This document shows positions 1-63,881 of a DNA stretch of 64,000 bases, piece by piece. The number at the start of each line of letters is the position of its first letter. The stretch's first letter is position 1. The notes below the pieces were generated by a model that saw only the letters and a program-made list of their open reading frames with translations, was not told the DNA's origin and ran no database searches. A program made the translations under genes and the position numbers. The DNA comes from Lamellibrachia columna (taxonomy: Eukaryota; Annelida; Polychaeta; Sabellida; Siboglinidae), in assembly GCA_963662155.1 (NCBI GenBank), contig OY759263.1:26052548-26116547 (forward strand), read 5' to 3'.

Positions 1-167
1 TGTTTTTCAGAATAATCATTAAAAACTCTTTTTGATACCATCCCCTAATCTGCTCCGTTGCACCCCATTGACTGGCATGGCTTTTCCGCCTCCCTCACAT
101 CCCTCCGTGCACCCTTCCCTGTTTTATTGTTCCTTCCTTGTCCCCGCCTTCCCCTTTTGCCCCCTAG

Positions 168-239
168 ACATGGACAGTTTACAGACAACAAGCAGTTTTG
201 TTCCCTCCATGTGAAGTTGACTCCGTCCAGCACCGTGAG
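168..239 (+). CDS. possible upstream CLASP exon (72 nt)
   Basis: A long pyrimidine tract ends in CCCCCTAG at 167 and a GAG|GTATTT donor lies at 239/240. The 72-nt segment between them is open in two frames. Read in phase 0 it would join the alternative start of the next exon at 2051. It shows no residue similarity to CLASP that I recognise, so it may be an optional exon of the Ser-rich linker or a chance splice-site pair. Confidence 0.2.
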
Positions 240-422
240 GTATTTCGTTTCCGACCAAGTCGTTTCATCATGTCGTGTGACCAGGCTCATTTCAGTGGCG
301 GCCACAGTAAATACATGCAAGGGAAATGGTTGCTATTGGCAACAATACAGAATGTTCAGTGTTGTTATGCTGAAATGTGTTCAAAAGCAATAATGGGTTA
401 ACATTACAGGTGCAAAATTAAT

Positions 423-1833
423 TATGGGTCATTCCGTGTCAAACCAACCAATGGTCAAAAAGTTGATGTCTCAGAATTAGCTTAGATTTGAACCATTGAT
501 TAAGTAGATACACCTGACCACTTCTGCAAAAATACTAAGGATTTGCATGCAAATTGTGTCTGTAACACCCTAGAATATGAACGGGGTAAGTGCCCAAAAA
601 CGCACCCATTATTTTTATTAACTGTTATCACGTGCTTCTAATTTGAGAAGTTTACAAGCTACATATCTGAAATTTGTTGAATATGTATACCGGGTGCTCG
701 AAAATGGAAAATTTCCAAATTGCTATCGTCTATTGTCAGAGATACTGACAATAACCCATTAGTTTTTCTAGTTGCCATACTTTCAGAATCATTCAGCCTT
801 CAACTTTAACTTTTTCTATATTTTACGAATTTCAGCACCCAAAAATGAGAATGTGGGACAAGTCCTATGACCACCATTTTTTGACTGTGCATAGCCCTTT
901 ATGAGGTAAACAATATATTAGAATTTCAGGATGGTGTTCTGTCACATTTATTTAGGAAATTTTGGCCGATTTGGGTGAAATATAGAACAAAACGCCATTG
1001 GGCAGAACAGTAACTATCAGCTGCAACATAGATTAAATGAGACAGAATACCATCCTGACATTAAATGAGACAGAATACCATCCTGACATTAAATGAGACA
1101 GAATACCATCCTGACATTAAATGAGACAGAATACCATCCTGACATTAAATGAGACAGAATACCATCCTGACATTAAATGAGACAGAATACCATCCTGACA
1201 TTAAATGAGACAGAATACCATCCTGACATTAAATGAGACAGAATACCATCCTGACATTAAATGAGACAGAATACCATCCTGACATTAAATGAGACAGAAT
1301 ACCATCCTGACATTTGTATGTGTTCTTTACCTAATAAAGGAATATGCACAGTTAAAAAATGGTGGTCCTAGGACTTGTCCTACATTCTCATTTTGGATGG
1401 TGAAATTCATAACATATAAAAAAAGTTTAAGGCTGAATTATTCTGAAAGTTTACGAACTAGAAGCCTACTGAACTAATAGGTTATTGCCGGCATCCCTGA
1501 CAATAGATGGTAGCAGTTTGAACATTGTACTGTAACACAACAATGAAGGACTTTGTCCTGTCATTCTTGAATTTTACATAGATAATTTTCAGATATGTAG
1601 CTTGTAAACTACTCAAGTTAGAAGCACAGATAACAATAGTGGGTTCATTTTGGGGTGCTTACCCCCTATTCACATTACGGGGTGTTACAAACACAATTTG
1701 CATGTAAATGCTTTGTTCTTTTGCAGAAGTACTCGGGTATAGCAACTTATTCATTGGTTAATTTAAGCAAATTCTGAAACATCAACTTTTGAAATTTCTT
1801 GAAAATTGGTTGATGTGACACAGGATGACCCAT
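423..1833. mobile_element. fold-back element 1 (long inverted repeats)
   Basis: The left arm (from ATGGGTCATTCCGTGTCA) reappears inverted at the right end (to TGACACAGGATGACCCAT). Shared internal blocks include the TGATGTCTCAGAATT, TTGCATGCAAATTGTGT and GAAGTTTACAAGCTACATA segments. The arms are about 400-500 bp each and diverged. There is no coding capacity. The centre holds a 10-copy 28-bp tandem array. A second copy lies at 39781-40678. No clear target duplication was found. Confidence 0.75.
1032..1311. repeat. 28-bp tandem repeat, 10 copies
   Basis: The unit ATTAAATGAGACAGAATACC plus ATCCTGAC is repeated ten times almost perfectly. The unit is the inverse of the CAGGATGGTGTTCTGTC stretch in the left arm of the surrounding fold-back element (near 928), so the array grew from the inner edge of one arm. 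Confidence 0.95.
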
Positions 1834-2030
1834 ATCAGTTATATGAAATTCTTTGAGAAAGCTCATTGGTCAGTATTGCAAGGCAACCGCTGATTCACTC
1901 TGGTTGGTCACATGGTGTCACATGATCAGCCACAAACGCAAATAGATGACAGCAGACAGCAGAAATCCGAGTCTGGTCGGTCTTTGCTCAGTGGCCCTCC
2001 CTGTTATCACTGTCATCACTACCCCATCAG

Positions 2031-2189
2031 GTTTTAAGAACGTTCGCCAGATGAAATCTTCACAGCAGCAGCGTCGGTCGTGCGCAGCGCGTAGCTTTGA
2101 CAATGACAACAACAGCCCATCGGATGTCAACAGCCCACGACGCAGATTTTCCTCTGACTCGGAAGCACCTGTGAAGCCACCGTCCCTAC
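2031..2189 (+). CDS. CLASP: CLASP exon: Ser/Arg-rich linker
   Basis: The acceptor CCCCATCAG precedes 2031 and the donor GTGAGT starts at 2190. The segment is rich in Ser, Arg, Asp and Asn (for example [19 protein letters not shown]) and ends in phase 1, as the next exons require. A second possible acceptor (CGCCAG|ATG, exon start 2051) would also keep the frame. This low-complexity linker is expected after TOG2 in CLASP. Confidence 0.75.
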
Positions 2190-5100
2190 GTGAGTGGTCT
2201 CAGACCTACGTCTCCAGTCCAAGTAGCGAGTAGTTGGCATGCGATGGAACCATTGTATCAATAGCAGCTGAACACACGTAAAGAACAGACAAAATGTTTC
2301 CCCCCCAAATTAGGCATTCACCCCACATAATTGTGATTGGTCACATGAAGTGATAGCTGAATTGCAAATGCTCCAAGTAATTAATTTGACACACATCGCA
2401 AATTCAAAGGGGAAAGAGCGGCTGCTGCACTACTAGGAGTTAGAGATGTATTTCAGATCGTGGAGTTAAAGATTTAAGCAGTGTACCTTCAACTTTGTAG
2501 TTTAGCATATCCACATATTTGAACTGCCCTGCAGATTCTGTTAAACCTGCGATATTTTCTTTGTAGTGTCACATAAAAGTGACGCTATTCAGCTATTGGC
2601 AGATTCAGATAAAAAGTGTGATATTCTAAATTTATCGCCACAAAATAAATGTCCTGTTTTAGTTAATGTATAAAAGTAAAAAGACGTAGTGTCGTACTTG
2701 ACCTAAGAGGGAGCCACCGTGTGTTCTTGTTGCTTGCCCAGCATCCTCGAGGGGCGAAGAAACTGAAAAGTGGCTGACTCAGAGCTGCAATGAAAACGTG
2801 TTCTCGACGGCCATGTCCGCTATGCGACATCGCTGTAAGTGCAGTAGGTCACGCGTTCAAGGTCACTGGTTTGGTTTTGCGTTTCGGTGACGTCACATTT
2901 TCGATTGTCAACTGACTGTTCACGGGGTTGACTATGTGCAGGTGTGACATGTTTTGTTGCTTCAAACCAGCCTGCCACCTCATCAATGGTTCTGTCAAAC
3001 TCAAGTCATGTCTGTGCAGGATTTAGCCAAATAAGTGTTCACGCAATGGGCACACAAATGAAGATTAAGAAGTGTTTTGTTTGGTTACACATACAGTATA
3101 TTTACAATAACGTATAAAGTCATGTTTTTTGGGCTATGCACCTAGAAGAAATAACAAAAACTAACCATGTGCAACTACAATCAAGAATATCACGCCAGTG
3201 GTTTACTTGGAAAACCTTGTTGAACACACATCTTTATGCTAGCCACTTATTGGTCACCCTGGTCAACATGTCAGCCACCAGGAAAACTGAGATTTTATCA
3301 GAATCTCCCACTCTCAGAACAAATTCTGAGAAAACCACTAGCACGATATTCTTGATTGTAGTTGCAAATGGTTAGTTTTTATTAACTCTTAGTTGTGTTG
3401 CCCCAAAACCATGATTTTCTTTTCGCTTTAAAATAAAAGTGGAACTCAGGAAGTCCTCTGGAATCCCCCAGGGGCTTATGACAAGGACCACCTAGAATAC
3501 CATAGAGTAACCTGATAGAATTCAGGTTACATTAAAGCAGAGTAGTTAATATATGTTGTGAATATATATATATATATATATATGTCTGTTGTTTGGTTGC
3601 AAATTTAAATCCACTCAAATGGAACACTTTAAAAAGTTCAGGTTGATGCAAGACGTCTAATGATAGTAATGAAGATCAGAAAGGGGTATAATTCACACTT
3701 TGAAAATAAGCTACAGAATTAATGTAATGTTATAAATACAACACATAAAAGGTGGTATAGGTAAAATCTATCACAGACATGACCTGAATGTTTACCCAGA
3801 GAAATGATGATTATATGTGGTAAAGTTTGACAGAATTATGAGACGAGGGTAGGTTTGCTTTGAAGGTTTCATTTGCTTTGTTTGATTCTCTTTATTCTTC
3901 ATCATTCATACTTGTGTTGGTTGTTGATGTAGTTATATGTATCATGTATTAGGATGTCATTGTGATTAAGTTAGCTGGAGGGACTTAAGCAGATGTTCTC
4001 AGATTTCTCAGAATGTACGTGTGAATACAGGCGCCACCTGGCAGTGATGTGGAGCAATTGACCCCCCACCTTGTCTCTACCCTGCCCCCTGTTGTATTGC
4101 TTGTCTCGCACGCTGCCTGCTTGATGCCTCTCGATGTCGTCTTTCTGTCCAAACCATCGGCCCTTTCACGACAGATGGATGTTGACTATCAGCTTGACTG
4201 TCAATTGGGGGCCACCTCACAAAACAATTACAAAAACAAAAAGGTTTTCAATCACCACACCAAAAAGGAGGTGCGTTCGTGCGTGCGTGCATGCGTGCAT
4301 ACACGCGTGTCTTTGTCCATATGGATAGAGCAGCAGAGGTTCATAGATGTGTGCGTGACTGGATATGAGTGTGAATGCATGCTTGTATGCGTGTGTGCAT
4401 GCATGCGTGCCTGTGTGTGTTCGTGCGTGTGTGTGCGTGCGTGTGTGCATACATGCACAAACCTGTATCTGATATAATTTAGTGATCCCACCCAACACAA
4501 AAACCTGTTTTGAATTGTACTGTTTTGTCTGTCCATAGTACTAGACAGTTATTAGTGTGTTGCATATACACACTCGAGAAGAGACGAGGGTAGGTTTATG
4601 CACTTGTATGTGATCAGTAATACAGAGTATTAATATATCTCTTGTTATTCTATCAGAAAATGAGAATTCGCCCACCAGATGGCAGCATTTGTCCTAATGA
4701 CGACTCATGATCGTTGTTCGTGCAACTGTTGGTTTTGCATAACATTGACAATGGCGTTGACCAGTTTTGCTTTTTGACACCAGGGCCTTTGTGCCGCAGC
4801 GCAACAGATCTGTGGGCGGGGCCGGGCTTGTCTCGCATTCCACGGCCCCATGTCACTTCTCCCCGACACTCGCGTGAGTAGGGGGCGCCATCTGGTGACA
4901 TTATGTGTCAGTGCCTACCCTGCTTGCTTTGTTGTATCATACTGCGAGTCTCGGAGACGTTATCAGGCATAGATATTTAGGGCATGCCCATCCAAGACGT
5001 AGTTTTGTCGTTGTATGGTATCCTCTTTAATATTTCTTTCTCTGATCTTTATAAAGCTGCATAGTAATAAATACTATTAATAAATATGGTATTGTGAAGT

Positions 5101-19100: not shown

Positions 19101-22100
19101 TCACGAACACCACCTAGTGGCAGTCAGAAACATCACAGTATGTAGTCTAGCCGATGGGATCTCTAGCGAAGTTGTCAGAGAATTATGGTTGGTTGTTGAG
19201 TGAAACGATCTGAAATGCGTTAACTTTTGACCGACCCCCCCTAATGTTTAATCCTGATGTTGGTATCACTCTCATTGTTAATGTTGGCGTTTAATGGATT
19301 CTGAAATATCGTATATCAAAAGTGACGGTGATGTGTGCCAAAATATAAGCCCTATTTGTGGCGTTGAAATCTTCAGGAAGATATATGTTTCTGCTTTGAA
19401 GTGATTAACGGGTGATTATATGCTTAGTGAATCTGCCAAAAAATACTGACATCTGTCATTTAACAGGATTATATTTGGTTTTGAAGGTCTATAGGTCATT
19501 CAAATTACCTTTTGTTGAAATTGTCCCAGACTTGTTATGTACTGGCAGTTAAATGCTAGACTCAATCAGAGTAGGCTCACTTTGGAAGGTAAGGGTTCAC
19601 GTCAGTCGCCAGAATGACACAGCTTCTCTAGCTTTGCTGCAGTCTAACAAATGCATTTGTGGCTAAGTCTAACACTTTACTAAAGTCGCAGTTTAGCATG
19701 TGCGCTTCTCTTCCAGCTGTTCTTATGTAAGTTACTTTGGTGAACTTCCTCACACAGATGATGTTGGACCAGTAAATTGTGAGATAGTTACACAAGAAAA
19801 TGCAGTAAATTTACCCACGCTACTCTGTCATTGTTTACCATAAGATTAACTTAGTATCATGCCGCAGTGACTGACCTAGGTGATCACAGAAGTGTGTGTT
19901 GATGTTTACCATAAGATTAACTTAGTATCATGCCGCAGTGACTGACCTAGGTGATCACAGAAGTGTGTGTTGATGTTTACCATAAGATTAACTTAGTATC
20001 ATGCCGCCATGACTGACCTAGGTGATCACAGAAGTGTGTGTTGATGTTTACCATAAGATTAACTTAGTATCATGCCGCAGTGACTGACCTAGGTGATCAC
20101 AGAAGTGTGTGTTGATGTTTTTGTTAATCTAGTTTTTTAATCATTAGTGTCCTTTGCTGTAGACGTAGCAATTTCCTTCAGGTTACTGTGTAGTCTTGTC
20201 ACCTCTCTGAATCATGCTACTTCCACTTCCTATTGGTCATCTGTGGTCAAGTGCTGTCATGTGCCCTTTGTTTTAAGTCACATACCCGATCATGTGACAT
20301 AGCATTCTCCAACATGTTCTGTGTTATAAGTGAATATCATATAATGTATATGACAGGAACATATAGATTATGCTTGTTCAGTCAATATATACTTTCATAT
20401 TGGTATGACAAGATCATAGTGGTGCAGAAAATTAACTTGGCAACAGGAACTTTGTGGGTAGTTTGTCTAAAGTCACTCCTGGGGAGCATTGTCAGGTAGT
20501 ATGAGGCTAACCTGAGTTTTGTTCAGCAAGGCACTTGTAGAATGAGCCACTTATGATCAAATTAATGTGACACTGCAGCGCTAAACATGCACTGAAAATA
20601 TTATCTTTGTTAATATCGCACATACTTATAATAGATTCGTACTCATGTCACAACGTTATTATCGTACAGTTTTGGAGTTAGGAAATGTAAGAAATTTGTG
20701 TGTGGTTCATGAAGGGTTTGTGGGTTTTATAGTGCAATATTTTTCTTAAGATCTGATAGATCGACTCATTGTGTTATTTCATGGATTTCAACATGAAAAT
20801 GTGTTAGCAGTATGTTCTCAGAATGTAATAAAAGTTGTTAGCCAGTCAGAGTAAGATTGGTTTGGTTAGTTCACTGAAGACTACATAAATCAATAGTTGC
20901 AGCATGTTTTTAGTCAAACGCTTTTTTAGCATTTATGTCTTAAAATACTTCATCCATATATCTACTGGAAAACTTCACGTCATCAAATGCAAATGACCTA
21001 GAGTTTGTTTGTTCATCATTTGAACACATGAGACCTGTTTGTCATCTGTAAATGTGAATAAGCAGAAAACATATTTTTGGTTATGCAAAAAGATCACTCC
21101 TATGTTAACTTGAGATAACTGTATTTGTTTTTGTACACATAAGAGTTAACTGCCCAGTGTATATACAGCGTGAAATCTTTAACGTCATGCATGCATCTAA
21201 TTCATTTGCTCTCATTGAGTTGTCTTATGTTTTTTCACAGTAAATTTTACCCTTTTCTTTGTAACACTTCGACGACAACTTTTAGCTGTCTTCTTCATAC
21301 TGACTACCACTAGATGGCAGCATGCTAGTCATGGTAGGAGCTACCGATTACATAGCCATAGAAGTGTATGGATGGCCCTGCTTGTGGTGACTACTGTGCT
21401 GCCATCTAGAGATAGTCAGTCTGGTGAAGATAGCTGAAAGCTGTCGAAATGATACAAAGAAAACAGGTAAAATTTACTGAAAAACGAGTAACAGATTAAT
21501 ATAAAACAGACATTAGTTTTCCTCTGTGATGCGTAGCAGCATGGGCATGAGTAGAGTGACTCTGCATGACGCGCCTGTAGTTGTATGCAAGAGGATCCTG
21601 CAGGTACTGCCCTGTATTCTAGGTGAAGGTGGCGCTACTGAACTACATCCACAGCCTCACTCTGCTCATGGAGCCGCAACACTTCGTCAACAGCAGCGAC
21701 ATGCGATTGTCCGTCTCAAGATTCATCACCTGGACGACGGAGCCGAAAAGTGCCGAAGTCAGAAAGGCGAGTGTTCTAGCGTTGTTTTTTGCTCTTCGCC
21801 TTGGCTGTCGTTAAGAGTTTATGTTAGGATATAAGCCACTTCATTTGTGTATCAGTCTGAGGTGATGCACTCCTGAACATGGTGTCATCTTGACAGAGTT
21901 GGCTTCTCCATCCTTGAACATACATCATCAATAACCTCCAGACAACACAAACTCTTGGGAGTTCTGAACATTTTTCATTTTAATTATATACACACGCAGA
22001 CAACCCTCCAATCTCTTTGTGGCAGGGCTTTGGCAATTGTTTGTCCTGTTTTAAAAAATATGTACGTAGCAACTATTCACATTTAGTGGGCAGTTGTGTC

Positions 22101-25100: not shown

Positions 25101-28100
25101 GACAAAGACAAGCTGCATGATTCTGTGTTAGATAAACATTTAAATATGAAATACATAGTGATGAACAGCCATAAAGACCTCCATCTTTGGACCACATGCT
25201 GACTGTGTCATGTGACATTGCTGTGATTGCAGCACATCACAGGACAGTGGCATCCAGGACCTGCGAGGCAGCCCTGACAACATGGGCCACAAGCGACGTC
25301 TGCAGTACAACCCAAGTCACTACCAAGAGGAGGTGAGGCGCAGTTCCTCTTTGTGGCTTTAAAAATTCTCCTAATTCATTTAGCCTGTCGCGAATCAGGT
25401 TCTTTGATGTTCAGATTTATAGATGAGATGACAGTAGTGAGGCAGTTAAGCTTTACAGACACACAACAAAGTCTTAGACGTGTCATGCAATTCTCAGTCC
25501 ATCTGCTTTAGTCATCTGTGGACGATACTGTCAACAACATAGTCACTTTTGTATGTGTTACTGACTTGTTATCATCAAGATAATTTTTTTCTAAAACAAT
25601 TTAAGGGTAGGCACTACTCGAAAATGGCCACATGCCATATCTCTGTTAATACTCCATGTATCTTAACCAAATTTGGTATGCCTAATAGTCATGTGAACAG
25701 GACATAGTGTGTAAAATTTGGGTTGATTTGCATTAGGCTTTACCATGGAAACCGACATTTGAAAATTATGTGGAGAGATCATTTAAAAAAATTTATTCTG
25801 AGCCAACTTTTTTATGTAGAATCATGCAACTATTAAAATTCATCAGCTGGAATGTCCCTTTCTACAATAAGATGATTCGAGCTTGAGATATCTTACTTTT
25901 ACAATGGTTGTGAAATGTTTAATCAAAATAATTTTTTTTTTTACATTGGTCGAGTGTGGTTTTTCATTCCTACCAACCACCTGTTGTCAAATGTATTGGT
26001 AAAAACTGTGTTATTGTGTACATAACATATGTGGGAACAACTGGCAAAAATTTCAGGTGGCTAGCTTACATAGTTTTCCGTGAATAATTATTTGAAATTT
26101 CACAATTGTTGAAATAAATGATTTTGAGAAAACGGCAAAAAACGAAAGCAAACCATAAAATAATGAAATTAGAACTGGAAACCAGTAACTAAGTGTATAA
26201 AACTAAGCATAATCATTTACTAGGTTGATATAATGAACAAAAACAAGTAATGTAACAGGTACAACACATTTTATTGTTCACAACTACCAGGCACCAGGGT
26301 CGTACAGCTGACCCTCCTCCTCTGCCTGTTTCTCTTGGGCCTGTAGTTTCAGCAGAGTCTTTCTTTTTCGGCTAGATCTAGTCTCAGCTTTGAGGGCAGT
26401 GTCTGCCTTGCGTAGGCGAGCGAGGTCCTGTCTCACTGTCAGCTGGGACAACTGTGCACTCCCTGATGCCTGTGGAGCGACAGCCTCAGTTGCACTGACC
26501 AACATTTCTGAACCTTTATTGAATTGTACCACGCCCATAGCCACAGCAATTTCAACCGTTTTTCTTGAACTGAATACAGCTTTTCGAGCCCTCCTCCACA
26601 CCACCGCATGGAGGGACTCGTTTGCATTGGAGGTGCCGAGGGACATGCATCTTTGTATCAGTTGAGGACTTGCCAGCCTGTCAAATAGTGGCAACAGGGA
26701 TTCCGCTGCATCCCTAGGGAGAGGAGTGTCGTGCTTCTTCTGCTTCCTCTTCTCCTCTGGTTCAATCCCCTCAGCTATAGCTTGTTTGAAGAAACACCAT
26801 TCGATGCTACAACGGTTATGGTGAGGGTCATCGCTGGTTGACACACTATGAAAAAAGATCGCCCAGATCGCTTGTATGGTCGCATCAACATTGGGCGCAT
26901 GCGTCACGATGGCATTCCTGTAATACTGTACCCAAGCTTTCATTCTGGTAACAGTCAGTTTTCCTTTCCCACTCAAACTGGTTTTTGGCTTTGCACCGCA
27001 TGTGCCTTTCCCCTTCGTACCGCGGGTGTCTTTCCCCTTCGTTGATGTCTCTTTCACAATCTTCTCCAGGCCTTTATACATCCGTTTTCCCATGTGATTG
27101 ATGCACTCATGTTTTTCTATTGCAATGTCAGCACCATATGGCTGCAGTGAATTCAGTGCAGACATAACAGCAGCATCACCATCACCGAGTATAGATGTAT
27201 ACTGCGCATCCAACAAATTCATGGACCTAGTCCACATCACCTTGGCTGCCTCAACTTCCATCGAGCCACTGGAGCCAGTGTGGTTGATGTCGCAGTTATC
27301 TCTGTGCAGTTCCTGCCATTCCTCCCTATCATCACCACTCAGTTTGTTGCCAACAAGTTGACATTCCACACAGTACTTAGACCGCACAGCATAGTCTATC
27401 ACGAGTCCGGTCACCACCTCGATGATGAAGCCGACTCCGAAGAGAGAATGGAAGCCTCTTGTTTTCCAGGTACCGTCGTAGCTTACGGACAGCTGTATTG
27501 GTCCATCACTGGCTCCATACAAATCATGGTACACATGACGTACAGTGTCATGCGCCTCCACCAAAGCATCACATGCTGTCCCGAACAGTTTTACCTTCAG
27601 CCGATCTGAGATGGAGCTGAATGTCTTGTGGTGTATGCCGCCCTTGATGTTCATGAGGGTCGTCAACCTCATCAAGCCGGTCTGGTTGATTCCACCTTCA
27701 CGTGCAGCTAGAACTGCAAGGTGGTTGATCATGTACGGCTGGCGAGTCGGGTTGTCAGTTGTCGGTAGCTTTGGCGAAGAATGCACACTGGACAGTTCAG
27801 CGCCACACTTCTCACATTGCAACCTAAGTTGCACAGAGTAGCCTTTTGTATCTGTTGAGATGACATGCAGTGTTGCAGAGCTGCACTCTAGGCATGCTAG
27901 TGGCCTCAGAAGATCTTGCAGCTTCTCTGTGTGCACCAGGATAAAGTGGTCGTCGGTGGGTTGATGGGTTGCCAATGGAATTCTCACAGGGTCATCTGGT
28001 GGAGACAGCAATACCATCTTGCGGTGACTGGCAGATGCTGCATGCAGTGAAGCAAGGGACACAGAGGGTGCCTCTTCAACTGCAGCTGAAACAGTAAAAT

Positions 28101-31100
28101 ATGGTGTAACTACACTGCATAAGGTGTAAACACTAATGTAATGACGTCTGGATGCCAACTGAGGTTACATATAATCTACTTAGTGAAGCAATCTACTTAG
28201 TGAAGCCCTAATTAGTATGCTATTATTTGCAATGTACTCTGTCTTATTGTTATTTACTATACTTATTGTACTAAATAAACACACAACTATTACTACTGCT
28301 GTGATATACATGCATAGTAATAATACTAACAACCAGGTGCTTTGGAATTGGTGACTGGCATTGCCATTGGCGGGCAGGTACTACTCATCACTGCCTGGGC
28401 TGGTACTCTGCCCTGGCTACTTAGATACAGCCTGGTAACTGCTAGTATGTAGACGTAGGCACCAAAATAATATTTCAAATTTGAAATAAAATATCGTATC
28501 AAAGTAACAAAATACGAATGAAAACAATATAATGTGATACTAAACAAATTATTACAAATAAATAACTAGTTATTGATTGCTAAATGCAGGGTTCATCAGT
28601 TCCCGCTTACAATGTCCGTTTCCATATTATTTTTGGCAATATACAAATATTTTTTACGCTACGATTGTGCATAGTATGTTTACACACCTGTTTTCTTTGG
28701 TCTTCCGCCTCCAGATTTATTTTTCTTTCTCTTTCGGGCACCAAATCCGTGAACTGTGCTAAACTTTTTCGTATGCGACTCCATGTTGTCTTCGAATACC
28801 GGAAACGGCACTGATTGGCTGATTATGTGGTCATCACCACGCCGGCCACGCTCATTGGATTATATGTCTACGCATTATTATAATGAGCCACAGATCGCGT
28901 AACAAGTCCTTATTTGGTAGTTGGTCACACAAATTAGATTCCAGATTATTCCAGAGAGAGGCTTCTAAAATGTATGCAAAACGTCACATCCGGAAATACA
29001 CAACCATTCGGACAAGACGGCAACAAATATGGCGATTCTTTCAGTCAGCATGTGTCTGAAGTCAAACGATCTTTTTGACGAATATTGGACATTTAAAAAT
29101 GGCTGCCACGCTGGATTTATTTCTTGGAGACTAAGAGGCATGATATAAAGCATGTTATTTTAGGTATTTATGATGCAAATATTAAAAAATGCTTATGCAT
29201 AGAGCTGCATAAGATATTAATCTGCCGAAAAATCAAGAAATCACAAAACCGATATATTCATCGATTCTCGACCCGCGGCTACCGTTAAGTTTTTTTTGGG
29301 TTTCAAGTGTTGACTTATTCTAGCCACCCACACTCTATTCCTCTCTGTGCTGACATCACTTGTCTATGGGTGAATGAGAGTTGGATAGAAGAATAATGCT
29401 GCTTTATTTGTTTATTTATTTATTACTTTTACCCAGTCTCAGTTAAATTGTTAGTTTATTAAGCAATGCCTTCCTGTCTGCCTTTCTCAGGGTGTCAATG
29501 GCTATAACAAGTCTGCGATGCAAGAGGCCGTCTTTGATGTTGAGAGTGAGCTCTTCAATGAAGGTAAGAAAGTGTTGTCATCGCTGTGTCGACTGTAACA
29601 TCGTTGTAGAGTGTTCTCTTAACACTAGAGGGCACACCAGTCAGTAACACACGATGTGCATGCTTGTGTTGTGGGACTCTGGGCCTCTTCTGTTACCTGG
29701 CTTCGGTGAACAACGACAGCAACAACAACAACAACAAAGAAGTCTTCTTAACAGTCGTAGAACAATATTTTTCCTTACATCGTGAGTTTCTTTTATTGAT
29801 TCGTCGTTGATTCTTAGTGCGAATTTATCAAAATGTTTAGTCAAGTTTTCTATCAAAATGGCCATCACACAAGAAACACTTCGCTACTACAATGGATTGT
29901 TTTGTTTTATATCGGACACGTGCATGCGTGCGTGCCTCCCCGTTATTGTTAGATAACACCAAGCTTTTTTGGATCTTTCCACAGGCGTTAAATTGTAACC
30001 TTGTTATGTTAATGTGGTTAATCATGCTTTCTTTATTACAGCGTTGCAGCTCAATGGTTTATTTTTATTATTTAAGCAATATTATGTAAGTGATCTTATG
30101 CCATCTGATTCATTATTTTCAGCCAAGCCATTACAGTAGCTATTGAAGTTATGTTAGATTTAATTTTTATGTGCTTTTTATTAGCATGAAAATTATCAAA
30201 TTTTTATTTTTAAAATAAGTAAAAGTATTCAGCGTTAAGCAGTGTTTCTAGTGTGATGAGCAAATACCTTTTGTAAATGATCATGTTAAGATTTTATAAG
30301 GCTTGACATGAATGTGACGATTAGAGGGAGAGTTAGTTTTACGTAGTAATGACCACAAAGAAGCTGTTTACAAAGAAAACTTGATTTTGCACACACATCT
30401 TCGTCATCTTGCTGGGTGGGGAGAAGAATGCTGTGAAATTTAAGACATTTCTTAATCAACGACACAATCAATCAAGTTATCATAGAACATGCAACAGAAG
30501 CCTTTTCCTAAAGTCTTCCCTTCGCGTCTGGCCACTGGTTTAGCCATGTTGCTTTCCGTGTGGTCCGTCTCAATGTTGTCTTATGTTACGTGCATCGCTA
30601 CGGTGAATGATCACGTTTGATTTCTAGCCGTGTAGACGAGACGATCGGTTGTCGTCAGTGGCTTCTGTGTTTAGGTGGCTTTCAGTCTGTTCCGTTGCCA
30701 TAACCTGGTTCCCACTTTTATCTGTTGCCAGCCCCGTGGAAGATGCTTCTGGGCATGCCCAGTAAAAATGGTGAGCTAAGGGAGGTTGGCCCAGCGTGCT
30801 GCTTTGTTCTGTTTGCCTGCTAGCAAGAGTGTGTTATAGTCTTATGGTGTGTGGTCACTGCGGTCACCATAGCACTAGACGGGATGCACTGCATGCTTGA
30901 CGTGTTCACCCTTTAGGCACAATCACAAACCCTTTGTTGATGCCACAAATACTGCTTGTTGCACTTAGAAATGCCTGTCTCTCAGTACCTCTATCAGAAA
31001 AGGTAGATCTACACATAAATAGTATAATATTTGTAGAGCAAACTTAAGCGGCTTCATATAGAATATATCCCGTATTAGAAATCAGTCTTACTTAGTACAA

Positions 31101-34100
31101 GAGTTCCTTATTTTTATAAGACTTCTCCCATATGTATATATGTACATACATAGATACATACTTCTCTATTTGCAGTCCATCATAATCGCTGATGACATCG
31201 ATGACATCGACGATGCATGCCAAAAACCAATGTTGGCGATACTAATGTAAACTAACTAGTGAAATCAATTTAATTATCTCATGCATAGAAGTTTTCATGG
31301 AGCCAGCAGTCAAGATGCCAAGAAAAGGGATTATCTGTCTATAAAATACAGTTTTTTCAAAATGTTTTCAAAAGTAATTTTTTTAATAATCATCCTTAAA
31401 TACATTACAGCATTTTGGGAACACCTTCAGAGTTATCTTACTGCAGTTACAGCGACTTGGAGTTGGTATGCTAACAAAGTAATGCATGTTACTTTTAGAA
31501 ATCATCTACGATAATCCTCACGATATCATAATAGCAAGCACCATGCCAGCAAAGTTGGTGAAGAAGGCGAACACGTGCATATGTCAAATGAATACCAAAG
31601 GAACTGTTTTCCTTTCATTCCTCATTGACTGCAGTTTTTTTGCACCAAGAAAACAGACTCGTTGATTTATTGCTCAGCGTTGTAACATTTAGCAAATGAT
31701 TGCCTCAACACGTTCCGGTAATATAACATATATTGTTTATATATTGTTTCTGACCGGTTTCATACTTTTAGTGCCATCAGTTCGCAAGGTATAGTGTATT
31801 GGCAACATTCTTTTAGCAATGTTGTTATGTTGTGTGCCGCCATCTGGTGAACCAATGTTTTATGAAGTCGCTGCTACAGATGACAGCATTTTTCTATGTA
31901 TTTTTCGATTGATATATATATATATATATATACATATATATGTATATATATATATATATATACATATATATATGTATATATATCTATATATATATATATA
32001 ATTATACATGTATATATATTATTAATATTATTATTACGTTACATTTTGTGTGGTCATTGTAATTTTCCTCCCTGCACATCACAACCCTATGTTGAGCACT
32101 GTCTGTGAATCAGCACTCGTTTCTTCTCTCCTCAATCACATACACTTTGTCATAACAGGAATGATCCTCGCAACACTTTTTCTCTCATCACACATGTACA
32201 TGCAATCACGCTCACACACACATACGCACGCACGCACGCACCAGTCTTGGAAATGTTAAGTGACATCTTGAAACCCCTAGTACAACTACCACATGCCTCT
32301 GCACCTCTAGCCACTTATTGTAAGCACCCGTTGCCACTTGTTGTAAGCACCCCTTCTGCTAACACCAGCCTGAACCAGGCCACTGATGCATTGATGCAGC
32401 TGAGTTTGTAGTTGATGCAATACTAACAGAAATTACCACTTGGCAGCCATTCTTTGGATGACGGCTGACTTTAAAATTTCATTTCAGGATTGTTATATTG
32501 AACCACTAAATGAAAGCAAATATCTCATATGAGAGAGAAAAGCTTTAATACATAAGACACATTAGCAGCCGTATCAAAACATTAATGTTTGTTGCTAAGC
32601 GAAAGCAATATCATTTAACCTACCCCATATAGGAAACTTTGAATGACATTGACCTGTGGATACTCAAGGACATGTTATGGCCATCATGCATACTGTTCAA
32701 ATTCAGCCGTCAACACAAAACTGCCAGCATGTGCTCAAAGTGAGCACCCTTGTAAACTGTCGTCAGAAGATAAGCAATGTTTTGGGAAAAACAACGCTAA
32801 ATGAAACAGCTTTGTTTAGCATCAAACGCCGCTGTCTTGAGATGACCCCTTGGGTTTTATATTACATCCCTTTACCTGCAGCCATTTTATAACATTCCAA
32901 GAGCTTCCAACTGGCCACTGCCTTGAGTTCTTGTCAATATAGCCATGTCCTGTGGTGCCACCTAGTGACAACAACATGACTTGCTCGAACCTGCACAATC
33001 TGCTGATTTGTCCCCAGGGGAACACTGAATAATATTACCACTACAGGTTCGCTTCTAAAACCGTGTCATATTTCCATACAGACTAATCACCATAGTCCTT
33101 AATAACTCCTTGTATGATATATGATGGTTCGTCTGTGTCGACCTTTACAGACCAAGATCAAGCTGACCTTATTCAAGACATTCTTGCCGAACTTTCCAAT
33201 CACAACGAACGGTGAGTGGTTCTACGCACAGACACCTGGTGGTATCTTCACAGGGGTTTTTACCAGTTGTAATTGTGTCATTTGTAATTAATTACAATTA
33301 TACAGAGTAATTTAAATTGAACGATTTTAGAATGTTTCAGCGTTTAAAATCATGATACTGTGTAATCATGTTTGAACCCAACCAGACCAAAAAATATAAT
33401 GCATGAATTCTTTTAACCCCCATCTAAAAATGAGCAGTAATTATAAATGATACATGTAATCTTCTTTTTATAAAACAATGTTGTAGTCCTGAACCTATGA
33501 ACCATTGCAATTGACCCGTTATGAAACAATGTAATTGTGTTTTAAGTGTTTTAATTTAAGTCAGTAGTGTAGTTTAGCTAATTTTTATGATGCTGTAACT
33601 GTAATTTACCACTGTAATTGAAACCAGCTCTGATCTTCAATACAGACAGATTTTAGTAGTTTGTAGGTGACAACTGACTATGGTTTCTCTTGCCACTTTT
33701 CTGCTGATTTTGTACCAGACCCAGGCAAAAATAAATTAATGGTTTGTTCGATGACTTCACCAAAACTAAATAACAGATTTACTTAGATGAGGTAACATGT
33801 CACAGCGAGTACTAGGTAGGTTTGATTTACTTAGATGAAATAACATGTCACAGCGAATACTACGTAGGTTTGATTTACTTAGATGAAGTAACATGTCACA
33901 GCAAATACTAGGTAGGTTTGATTTACTTAGATGAAGTAACATGTCACAGCAAATACTAGGTAGGTTTGATTTACTTAGATGAAGTAACATCTCACAGCGA
34001 ATACTAGGTAGGTTTGATTTACTTAGATGAAGTAACATGTCACAGCAAATACTAGGTAGGTTTGATTTACTTAGATGAAGTAACATGTCACAGCGAATAC

Positions 34101-37100
34101 TAGGTAGGTTTGATTTACTTAGATGAAGTAACATGTCACAGCAAATACTAGGTAGGTTTGATTTACTTAGATGAAGTAACATGTCACAGCGAATACTAGG
34201 TAGGTTTGATTTACTTAGATGAAGTAACATGTCACAGCGAATACTATATAGGTTTGATTTACTTAGATGAAATAACATGTCACAGCGAATACTAGTTAGG
34301 TTTGATTTACTTAGATGAAGTAACATGTCACAGCAAGTACTAGGTAGGTTTGATTTACTTAGATGAAGTAACATGTCACAGCGAGTACTAGGTAGGTTTG
34401 ATTTACTTAGATGAAGTAACATGTCACAGCAAATACTAGGTAGGTTTGATTTACTTAGATGAAATAACATGTCACAGCGAGTACTAGGTAGGTTTGATTT
34501 ACTTAGATGAAGTAACATGTCACAGCGAGTACTAGGTAGGTTTGATTTACTTAGATGAAGTAACATGTCACAGCGAGTACTAGGTAGGTTTGATTTACTT
34601 AGATGAAGTAACATGTCACAGCAAATACTAGGTAGGTTTGATTTACTTAGATGAAGTAACATGTCACAGCGAGTACTAGGTAGGTTTGATTTACTTAGAT
34701 GAAGTAACATGTCACAGCAAATACTAGGTAGGTTTGATTTACTTAGATGAAGTAACATGTCACAGCGAGTACTAGGTAGGTTTGATTTACTTAGATGAAG
34801 TAACATGTCACAGCGAATACTAGGTAGGTTTGATTTTTCACGAAATGAGTCTGAAGTGAGACGAACAAGGAGGCAGAAGCACCTTTAAATAAATAAATAA
34901 AAATTGAAATGATCTTGATGATTCGGCTGCTGTCGTAGACATGAGGAACGCATCCAGGCAATGCAGCAGCTCATGAAGATGACCCGGGACAACTGTGCTG
35001 CCATATGGGATGACCACTTCAAGACGATCCTACTGCTACTGCTGGAGACACTCGGCGACAACGACGTACGTGTCTGTTTCACTGCTGTCAGGTGACAGTT
35101 CATGCTGGTGGATTGATGCTGTCCAAGTGCATTGTGTTTTAAATGAGCAATCATTCTCGTTCCTATCATTCACACTACACAATCATCCGTTGAGCAATTT
35201 CTCGCTCATGCTAACTGCCAGAATCACTTGTCCCCAACTGGAGTTGTATGTAGCTTTCTCTTGTGGCTAAATATACACAAAGCACTGTCCCACACCAAAC
35301 AATCGCCCTAGGAGAAACACCCAACAGAGCCATGACCTCACCTACGACATTCCATCTCATCAGACATCCTGCAGACAGAAGACTTTCTGTCCCAGAACCA
35401 TACCAGAGTGAAACAGTCTTCGTCAAGAATTTACCACAGCTCCTACCCCTGGCTCTTTTGAGACCAGGGTCTGCTATTTTCCCAACCTCTAACTTGTATT
35501 AACGAAAAACAGGTACGTGAAGGCTGGAGCTGTGCCGGTCGGGGTCCTGCCCCGGGGGCTGCTGTGATAGCCGGATTGGTCTGGCCGGATACCCCAAGTA
35601 GTTAATACATTTGTGCACTTTTCCACACTCTTCCCCTGTTTAATTTATCTTTTCATTTCCTCTGCTTTGTTCTTTATAATTTTGATATGCACTGCAACCC
35701 CCGAAAAGTGTTGCAAAATCTCCAAGCTTAATGGATGGTGGCTGCCTAACATAAAGAAGAGAAGAAGAATTAGCATTGCCGCCCAATGATTTTTCTTCCG
35801 TTAACGTGTTAACTTATACATATTGTTTTTTTTTGTGGCATTGAACAACGTGCCATTTTGTTAAATGTTGTGCTCTTCTCATTTATAAATTATGATAGTG
35901 TAAATGAGGTGTTGGTGTCATCATGGCACAGGTAGATTGCTCTAAGACTTGCTGGAGCGGGCAGAATAAACGTGTATGTTGTTTCTTGAAGGGCCACACG
36001 AGGTCGCTGTCGCTGCGAGCGCTGAAGGAACTCCTCAAGTATCAGCCGTGTCGTTTCACTGACTACGCGGAGCTGACCATCATGAAGGTTCTTGACGCTC
36101 ACAAAGACCCAGTGAAAGAGGTAAGACATTGTAGTTGTAGGACATCAGGGAACAGGGCTGACAGTCAACTGACAGACACATTTCAAGTAATCTGATTGGT
36201 TGAAAATGTCGCTCTTTTTCGCAGCTGTGCCCCCCGATTGGACTTATGTTATCTCTCTGATCTTCTTGGAACCTGTACATTGCTTGAAGTCATAAATAAT
36301 ATACAATGTCACACAATTCAGATTCGTAATTAATCTAATTGTTACTGCAAATGACCGTGTTAGATCCAACAATATAATTAATCATGTTGTAAGATAATGT
36401 ATGAAATCTGTGCAAATAGTTACCAAGAAACCTGTTTTATTATGATGATGAACTCGTACGCAAAAGCTATCATCATGTTACAGCTGTCATATTAAAATGA
36501 ATTCTGTTTCACTAATTTTCTTGTAAGCATTAACGATGAAGTCATTTCACTGTGGTATATGAATACAAAACTCATAAAGCAGTTGTCGATCTCACAGAAA
36601 ACAAAATTATGATTATTTTAAGGGCAAAAACATGGTTATAATGGAACACATGTTTTATGTTGCTCACAAGAATCCTATTTTGTGACAGGTAACAAGTGCC
36701 TTTATACAACCACAGCTGGGTTCTGTTGTAATCGTGTAATTGGTAATTAATTACAAATACAGTGTAATTATAGTTTACCATTGTAATCGGACCCCACCCT
36801 GGCAGCGAGAATGCATGAATTCACCTAAAACCCTCTCTAGCATGAACAGCAATGAATCGTTGATACGTATAATCTTCCTTTTTACAACAATCTAGTTGTA
36901 CCTATGAACTATTGCAGTTGACCCTTTATGAAGCAGTGTAATTGATTTTCTTGAAGCGCCCTAATTGTTAGTTGGTTGTAATCCATCTAGGAAGTGCTGA
37001 CATTGTAATTCAGCTTTTATGATGCTGTGTAATTGTAATTTACAATTGTAATTGTGTAACTTTTACTTGTGTTTGATGTCCAATGTACCCTGTATACCCC

Positions 37101-48844: not shown

Positions 48845-50251
48845 GCGATCTCAAGCTTTGCATTGATCGCTGCTTGTTTGATGACAAACTAGGCCTCTGT
48901 AGGCTGCTCCAGGCTTCTATGCAGGATGTTCTTCGGGCCTAAGAAGAAGTCACCCTGGTAAAGGACATCTTCATCGACAGCAGACAAAATGCAGATGCGG
49001 AGTACAGTGAGATCTAGAAGATGACGGAAGAGATGACTGAAGAGATGGCCAACACTGTTGGGAAAGTGATCTGAGTCCCAAGGCGCAGTGGGAGGGCAGA
49101 CCATGAGAAACAACGTGGAGGCAGACAATGACAAACAACGTGGAGGCAGACCATGAGAAACAACGTGGAGGCATACAGTGAGAAACAACGTGGATGCAGA
49201 CCATGAAAAACAACGTGGAGGCAGACCATGAGAAACAACGTGGAGGCAGACCATGAGAAACAACGTGGAGGCAGACCATGAGAAACAACGTGGAGGCAGA
49301 CCATGAGAAACAACGTGGATGCAGACCATGAGAAACAACGTGGATGCATACAATGAGAAACAACATGGATGCAGACCATGAAAAACAACGTGGAGGCAGA
49401 CCATGAGAAACAACGTGGAGGCAGACCATGAGAAACAACGTGGAGGCAGACCATGAGAAACAACGTGGAGGCAGACCATGAGAAACAACGTGGATGCAGA
49501 CCATGAGAAACAACGTGGAGGCAGACCATGAGAAACAACGTGGAGGCAGACCATGAGAAACAACGTGGAGGCAGACCATGACAAACAACGTGGAGGCAGA
49601 CCATGAGAAACAACGAGGAGGCAGACCATGACAAACAACGTGGAGGCAGACCATGATCAACAACGTGGAGGCAGACCATGAGAAACAACGTGGAGGCAGT
49701 CACCCCAGAAAATATTGGCGACGCTTAGTATTCCCAGCATTTATAGACTACCTTCTCCAAGAATTGGACACGAGATTCATTGTGATCACAGGGAAAGCTG
49801 TGCTCGGTCTGAAGCGCCTATCCAGTAACGTGGGCGAACTGACAGGTGCTAACATAAATGACCTACAAGAATAATGTTGCCATGACTTGCCATCCCTAAC
49901 GTTCTTTCAAGATGAAGTCACACTGTAGTAGAAGAAATGGGATTCGTCAGAAGAAACAAAGCCCTGTAATCTAGAGTAAACAAGCAATGCACATCCAGTT
50001 CCATGTTCCCATATTTTTTCCGTATTTTTCACTTGCTGGTGCTAATATCGGTCACAAGTGCTGGAGTGGAGCGTGCTAACTCTGCACTCAAACTGACGAA
50101 AACCGTAACACGGAGCACCGCGCACCAGGATCGCCTCAATGCGTTGATGCTGCATCACGTTGATGCTGCATCATGTACACAAGGACATCAAACTCGACAT
50201 CCAAGCAATTGTTTACAAGTACAAATTAAAGCATCCAAGAAGGAAGCTTGA
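48845..50251 (+). pseudogene. hAT transposase pseudogene (ZMYM1-like), split by a minisatellite
   Basis: The first part reads DDKLGLCRLLQASMQDVLRA, stop, VTLVKDIFIDSRQNADAEYS, stop, MTEEMTEEMANTVGKVI, stop, VPRRSGR. The array at 49095-49699 follows. After it come YWRRLVFPAFIDYLLQELDT and, later, SAGVERANSALKLTKTVTRS plus DRLNALMLHH, the hAT C-terminal dimerisation block. The order matches ZMYM1-like hAT transposases. Stops, frame changes and the array make it non-functional. Confidence 0.75.
49095..49699. repeat. 25-bp minisatellite, about 24 copies, inside the hAT pseudogene
   Basis: The unit GGCAGACCATGAGAAACAAC plus GTGGA is repeated about 24 times with AGG/ATG and GAGAAA/GACAAA/GAAAAA variants. 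Since 25 is not divisible by three, each copy shifts frame. All three minus-strand frames stay open for more than 225 codons (HVVSHGLPPRCFSWSASTLF-like), which is an artefact of the repeat. Confidence 0.97.
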
Positions 50252-62357: not shown

Positions 62358-63881
62358 CAGACTTGCCAAGTTCTGAAGGCCCAAAAGGGGTAGATTAGCA
62401 CATACAACAAAAATTCGGGGTTGCGTCGTCGACTGGCAGCCAAACTCGAGACACAGCACAACAAACACACTATTAACCACAATGGTTAAATACATTATTT
62501 TAATACACACAAGAAATGGTAATTATATACAATTTAAATAAGGTACATATAGGTACATACATAACATAATTATACAACAGGCTAAAATGCAGGTAAAAAA
62601 TACTGAGCATAATGAAAGGTGCATAAAAATTAAGGTAATGGATAAAAACATAGCAGTGAAATAGCAGTGAAAATAGCTAGATGCTCCACTTTTCAATTAC
62701 ATAAACATACACAGCTTATACTTCTAATACACAAGAAATGACAATTATATACAATATAAATAATTAATAATATTAAAAAAAATTATAAATCATGTAAAAA
62801 ATACTAAGAATGATGCAAGTTCCATAAAAATTTAGGTAATGGACAAAACACAGCAATGAAAATACTGAAATGTTCAAATGATAAAAATATATAAAAATTA
62901 TACAACAATAATTACAGACTAGACATGCAGCAATGTAAAAACAAGCACAAATCAGCATGAAACATCATGTTCATAAAAAAGCACTTAATAAAGTACAGAT
63001 TACAGAATAATACTGTTAAATAAGGCAATACTGATTAATAAAATAAAAATACCATGCCAGAAATATTCAAAGCTAGACACAATAATATATTGATAAATAT
63101 AAATGTTAAAAACTGCCTGGAATGTGCAAATGACATAAATATACATACAACATATAGATACAACAAAATGCTCTAAATAAAATTCACACTCGCTCCTGTG
63201 CCGAGCTAGAGCACAAGTCGTATGACGTGCACGCGACACGCGCCAGCCGCACTCACAGGGAGCGAACTCGGTACAGATAGTGTCCTCGTTCAACTTGCAT
63301 TTCAGCAGTGCTGATAGAGTCGAATTCCCCAACTGCGAACGCTGCTCGGTGAAGATCTTCACCATGCTGAAGGTCCTCTCTGGAGTAGCGTACGAGTTGG
63401 GGACTGTCAGCAGCGCCTTCGCCAGCGCACCGAGATGAGCAAACATCAAACACACAGCTGCCCGATCTTCGTCCACTGCTCATCCGTGGATGATGCGGCG
63501 GGCAGCTCGTCGTCGGGCATCAGCTGGAAGTGTGTTCATTCCTCCAAAAAACAGGTCCCAGAAACTAACGATCAATGATTAAAAACCATAGCTAGAAATA
63601 ACTCAAGCAAAAGAAACATTTGAACTGTTCTGGCGGTACTCTCTATAATTGTATGGCATAGATCACGAGGGCACATAGCTGCGATATCATTGGTCGTCAG
63701 AATCGAGGCCGATATTCAGATTCAAACAGGATCTTCCAGAAAGTCGAGATTTTTCGCTCACCAGTGCCGATTTTACCGATAAAATGGAAAACAAATGTTC
63801 CCCAAAATCGCAAAAACCGGTAGAAATGTTCTACTGACCGGTAGAAGAGGTGAAAAATCACCGGTAGACTTGGCATGTCTG
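62358..63881 (-). mobile_element. hAT element with perfect 8-bp target duplication
   Basis: Ends CAGACTTGCCAAGT and (inverse) CAGACATGCCAAGTCTACCGG are flanked by ATGTATGC at 62350-62357 and ATGTATGC at 63882-63889. At 1.5 kb it is too short for a full transposase. It keeps only the C-terminal dimerisation part on the minus strand (63180-63540), so it is an internally deleted derivative. The exact duplication suggests a recent insertion. Confidence 0.9.
63180..63540 (-). pseudogene. hAT transposase C-terminal dimerisation fragment
   Basis: The minus strand reads MFAHLGALAKALLTVPNSYA then TPERTFSMVKIFTEQRSQLG and LSALLKCKLNEDTICTEFAP, the hAT C-terminal block with the P-S-x-x-x-E-R-x-F-S core. 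Just upstream the reading continues in another frame (DDELPAASSTDEQWTKIGQ), indicating a frameshift. The Cys/His-rich tail (CECGWRVSRARHTTCALARH) is unusual. Not a complete gene. Confidence 0.8.

Follow-up and report, generated by a model that had tools for sequence, protein, structure and literature searches.

An intron of the CLASP gene of Lamellibrachia columna very probably harbors a young, autonomous-looking cut-and-paste transposon of the Kolobok type, inserted antisense to the gene at a TTAA site. It lies in a stretch of 64,000 nucleotides (assembly GCA_963662155.1, contig OY759263.1, 26,052,548-26,116,547, forward strand), hereafter the window, whose own numbering we use. The complete DNA transposon measures 3,680 bp (25605-29284, minus strand with respect to its transposase), as delimited by its ends and by 11 genomic copies. 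TTAA target-site duplications, located by an end search of the intron and by the genomic copies, flank it at 25601-25604 on the left and 29285-29288 on the right. An earlier note, made from the letters of the window, had placed the feature at 26284-28784; a transposase open reading frame (ORF) does lie there, but the true feature is the whole element.

Insertion site, borders and genomic copies

The host intron (25333-29490) is bounded by plus-strand exons at 25233-25332 and 29491-29564, with GT/AG at their borders and a continuous frame once joined. Farther out on the same strand, exons at 21623-21811 and 34922-35092 matched CLIP-associating protein 2 chains in the PDB (E 2.2e-15 and 2.5e-12, respectively). 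The CLASP call rests on these PDB matches; Pfam scans of the ORFs in the CLASP region gave no CLASP domain, and for the two exons just named only unrelated names below threshold. With a minus-strand transposase frame and plus-strand CLASP exons on both sides, the antisense nesting described in the earlier note holds. CLASP itself is probably little affected, since the insertion leaves all its exons and splice sites intact.

We searched the window's own assembly (880 Mb, 30 contigs) with the predicted element and found 11 full-length copies including the window's, at 99-100% identity (40 of 76 first-look candidates scored); such a count had been proposed earlier. Ten copies match positions 1-3680 and one matches 1-3677; at a twelfth place the match covers just the first 718 bases. 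The copies run to the predicted ends, and therefore the borders predicted from the window are those of the whole family. TTAA stands on both sides of eight copies, TTTA on both sides of one, and TTAA and TCAA on the two sides of another; the eleventh is damaged, its final three bases and the TTAA on the right being gone. The copy with TTTA on both sides (L039) hints that the target may not be strictly TTAA. Within the 64-kb window itself, we found neither a second copy of the element nor a second end adjoining TTAA.

The left terminal inverted repeat (TIR; 25605-25625, plus strand) starts with GG and agrees with the right end at 14 of 21 positions, its border being confirmed by the copies. The right TIR (29264-29284, minus strand), supported by the end search, the shuffles and the copies, starts with CG reading inward. 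Among the 48 possible TTAA pairs with inverted ends in the CLASP intron, 25601-25604 with 29285-29288 scored best: 14 of 22 bases match between its inner ends, and the runner-up reached 10. A score of 14/21 was attained in 25 of 2000 shuffles, and under a stricter rule, picked after the result had been seen, in 3 of 3000.

The transposase and its gene

On the minus strand the element carries a stop-to-stop ORF of 626 codons (26284-28164), which matched Pfam PF20700 ('Mutator-like transposase') with an E value of 3.3e-52. No other Pfam domain passed the cut-off in this ORF, NCBIfam gave no match, and a PDB profile search returned two matches, neither credible (E 0.13 and 0.33). Foldseek with the predicted model found nothing at E ≤0.001, and the list from a second aligner was a re-ranking of the Foldseek candidates.

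We located the motif residues in an alignment of 23 sequences, numbering them in the 599-residue frame of exon 3 (all positions on the minus strand). The first catalytic D is D203 in SYDGTW (27475-27477), which is nearly invariant and falls in strand 196-208 of the predicted model; the second, D301 in GDGD (27181-27183), occupies an invariant column. The catalytic E, E489 in NANESLH (26617-26619), is likewise invariant and lies in model helix 488-498. Alignment and codons further place a CxxH motif at C327-H330 (27094-27105) and, after the first D, a CCHC zinc-finger motif (C238, C241, H260 and C264; 27292-27372), and a second zinc-finger motif with invariant columns sits between CxxH and E (H422, C425 and C430; 26794-26820). 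All of these motifs are intact in the window copy. Apart from one ORF opposite the transposase frame, the element holds no second ORF of at least 130 residues, in a scan that did not seek shorter ORFs or spliced accessory genes.

The earlier note had proposed an open frame of about 668 codons in three exons agreeing in phase. Joining 28784-28688, 28438-28334 and 28085-26284 does give 668 codons including the stop, and the phases do agree, but the middle exon is probably not real. Exon 1 (28688-28784, minus strand; 97 bases with ATG, a basic N-terminus and a phase-1 GT donor) also joins directly and in frame to exon 3 (26284-28085, with the DDE domain and the stop), across an intron of 602 bases (28086-28687), and yields 632 residues.

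For comparison we used diverged relatives at 19 loci (L042-L060) representing 15 distinct places. The exon 1 peptide is present in 11 of the 15 (E 9e-10 to 4e-4), in every case followed by a G|GT donor. It was not found at L043, L045, L046 or the element of L048, where a 100% match belongs to a neighboring copy (L041) and was left uncounted. The acceptor of exon 3, ctgtttcag|CTG, is common to the window copy and the diverged relative L047. For exon 2 (28334-28438, minus strand), tblastn of the 19 loci, not all of which cover that stretch, gave no credible match, the best having an E value of 0.20 at non-corresponding places. Its donor, GTTGTT, is poor. In L031-L033 it also has six bases more than in the remaining eight copies, a weak point, as six bases keep the frame. 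Because exon 1 and its donor recur in relatives and exon 2 was found in none, we prefer a gene that probably has two exons and encodes 632 residues, with the former exon 2 probably intronic. A protein-database search with the N-terminus returned only the sister-copy protein P0001, which starts inside exon 3 and is thus uninformative on exons 1 and 2.

The signals described around the gene were also recovered. AATAAA (26270-26275, minus strand) begins at 26275, 8 bases past the stop, against 0.05 expected in 40 bases. Three CCAAT boxes lie within 400 bases 5' of the ATG against 0.52 expected, and two of them (starts 28858 and 28818; 28814-28858, minus strand), less than 80 bases from the ATG, are promoter candidates. 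A sigma-70 promoter scan was disregarded, its model being bacterial.

The ends, duplications, copies, reading frame, conserved residues, recurrent exon 1 and donor, and CLASP insertion are observations, from which we infer transcription, splicing, catalysis and present activity as follows. Once the element had inserted into a TTAA of the CLASP intron, antisense to CLASP, a promoter within its right end would drive transcription of the two-exon gene, whose RNA would then be spliced. Its product would be a DDE transposase of 632 residues with an RNase H-type fold, D/D/E and CxxH, two zinc-finger motifs and a basic N-terminus. This transposase would bind the two short inverted ends, excise the element and reinsert it at another TTAA, with duplication of the four target bases.

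Classification, age and competing explanations

We would class the element as a new family of a known superfamily, Kolobok-type, an assignment set by its described features and not by Repbase transposase homology. In the descriptions given in PMC9587614, the Kolobok lineages with both zinc fingers (KolobokE, KolobokD, KolobokP and Kolobok5) share with the window element TTAA duplications, short imperfect inverted repeats, a DDE with CxxH, a zinc finger between CxxH and E, and a CCHC after the first D. The likeness is one of described features, and a right end with RR (R, purine) is usual in these lineages, whereas that of the window element is CG. The architecture of KolobokP, which per the same descriptions has long direct repeats of about 450 or 660 bp at its termini, was rejected, as no such repeats are present in the element. 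KolobokE, KolobokD, KolobokH and Kolobok0 are described with an accessory nuclease, helicase or KolX; among the ORFs of at least 130 residues scanned here, none was seen. As far as PMC6004289 describes them, Xenopus Kolobok and T2-MITE elements have in common with the window element the TTAA duplication, a left-end RR and several full-length copies, yet the ten full-length elements tabled there measure 6.8-13.9 kb and have AG ends, compared with 3,680 bp here.

The earlier note called the transposase Mutator-like, which is also the Pfam label of PF20700, a domain on which our literature search found no paper; this label can include TTAA-targeting elements of the Kolobok type. MuDR/MULE elements make duplications of 8-10 bp, and we consider it very improbable that the element is one in the Repbase sense. 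The likeness lies in a DDE transposase with CxxH and in the Pfam name, and CxxH is described, in the account we drew on, as common to the MuDR, hAT, P and Kolobok superfamilies and bacterial IS256. The earlier note suggested looking for inverted repeats with 8-9-bp duplications within 25333-29490; the best 8-, 9- and 10-bp candidates were matched or exceeded in 19, 121 and 117 of 300 shuffles, and the 8-bp one lends some support. The 11 copies, however, extend past the borders of that candidate to the TTAA borders (ten fully, one 3 bases short). The 4-bp TTAA duplication, found at 8 of the 11 copies and, among the ends read in relatives, at 9 of 10 on the left and all 10 on the right, together with short imperfect inverted ends, makes the element Kolobok-type instead.

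The transposase of piggyBac differs from that of Kolobok-type elements, and no piggyBac domain was among the Pfam matches of the window ORF. TTAA duplications are also made by piggyBac, as noted in PMC9587614.

The 11 copies differ pairwise by 0.08-0.63% (mean 0.44%), and the window copy by only 3 substitutions in 3664 bases from its closest sister (L034). The transposase is open throughout in 6 of the 11 copies and broken by a stop or frameshift in the other 5, in L040 in exon 1 only. Exon 3 holds 21 nonsynonymous changes, two of which create stops, and 7 synonymous ones, in a count that takes in the broken copies but not length changes; 71% nonsynonymous is expected under neutrality (p = 0.84 against neutrality). 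These changes fit no selection; co-option, one of the two possibilities raised in the earlier note, is therefore unsupported, and the other, a recent arrival that may be active, gains support, most ends and duplications being kept as well. Youth, and not adoption by the host, explains why the window copy is intact. Between families, the nonsynonymous divergence ranges from 0.25 (L047) to 0.38 (L056, L059 and L060), with a synonymous divergence too large to compute, and we infer that selection acts on the transposase across the family's life, as for transposons that need to move to persist.

A domesticated host gene, kept by selection at this site, would account for the long open frame, the intact motifs and the promoter- and polyA-like signals, and PMC6004289 describes many Xenopus Kolobok transposases as domesticated. 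The window transposase does not look so: ten further full-length copies exist, the ends and duplication are intact, a sister copy is nearly identical, and constraint after insertion left no sign. The single copy, lost ends and purifying selection that would mark a domesticated gene were not seen. We regard domestication as extremely improbable. Regulation of CLASP by the insertion, whether by way of antisense transcripts or of cryptic splicing, is unlikely, if less remote; nothing weighs directly against it, and the element is antisense within the intron and carries its own gene signals, but antisense nesting is generally expected for about half of random intronic insertions, and the insertion appears too young to show constraint. 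The tempting account of a co-opted gene regulating CLASP thus gives way to a simpler one.

Several observations weigh against a young Kolobok-type element. Without the TTAA condition, some end pairs with 2- to 5-base duplications score as high or higher, namely 16/22 for duplications of 2 and 3 bases (one of these pairs is the present pair of ends moved outward) and 14/22 for a different 4-base word and for words of 5 bases. The TIR evidence taken alone is weak and only suggestive, and the case for the element rests on the genomic copies. A comparison of 28 changes could miss weak constraint among the copies. The right terminus, moreover, is CG and not RR in all 10 complete right ends, one base departing, while the left is GG in 11 of 11. 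Since the 10 right ends read in relatives all begin with GG, we read CG as a change within the window element's family. We treat a terminal RR as usual, not defining; were it held defining, the label would be 'Kolobok-like'.

The young Kolobok-type transposon remains our preferred reading, and its 11 full-length copies, nearly identical and six of them open, make the family a fair candidate for a Kolobok that is active in nature. It is a real possibility, judged slightly short of probable, that the family is mobile today in this species, that its open copies make a working transposase and that its right end breaks the RR/YY rule (Y, pyrimidine). If so, it would be an active, native transposon specific for TTAA and unrelated to piggyBac. 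The family also lends itself to asking whether the RR rule at the termini is truly required.

Related loci and other features of the window

Searches of viral_contigs and genome_contigs found no relatives. P0001, the database protein nearest to that of the window, departs from it at 7 of 592 residues; P0001 is the translation of copy L036, identical except for the first residue (GTG read as start), and as another copy of the family it is therefore not independent evidence of conservation. PF20700 itself has at least 114 matches above the cut-off in the assembly (114 scored of 1698 first-look candidates).

One relative (L042/L051/L053; G000:C11:8568382-8570933) is chimeric: over its first 744 bases it shares 97.7% identity with the window's element, whereas the remainder has 69-72% identity and lacks two internal stretches, with TTAA at both ends. 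It looks like recombination between Kolobok families. At G000:C9:15570350-15579803, three equal-scoring PF20700 matches with an exact spacing of 4,187 bases form a tandem array, the last of them sitting in an open frame of 2,332 residues. PF20700 matches of similar score, with open frames of 471-763 residues, also cluster locally at G000:C2:26236004-26624511 and C2:36335530-36642295; these could be tandem arrays or adopted genes.

Elsewhere in the window, fragments of a hAT transposase dimerisation domain lie at 63000-63476 (minus strand, E 1.1e-5, above the cut-off) and 49970-50248 (plus strand, E 5.5e-4, below it), in agreement with the remark in the earlier note that almost all other transposon genes of the window are dead. 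Two long minisatellites, a 48-base unit repeated 22 times (33776-34836) and a 25-base unit repeated 24 times (49095-49699), are both overlapped by long reading frames.
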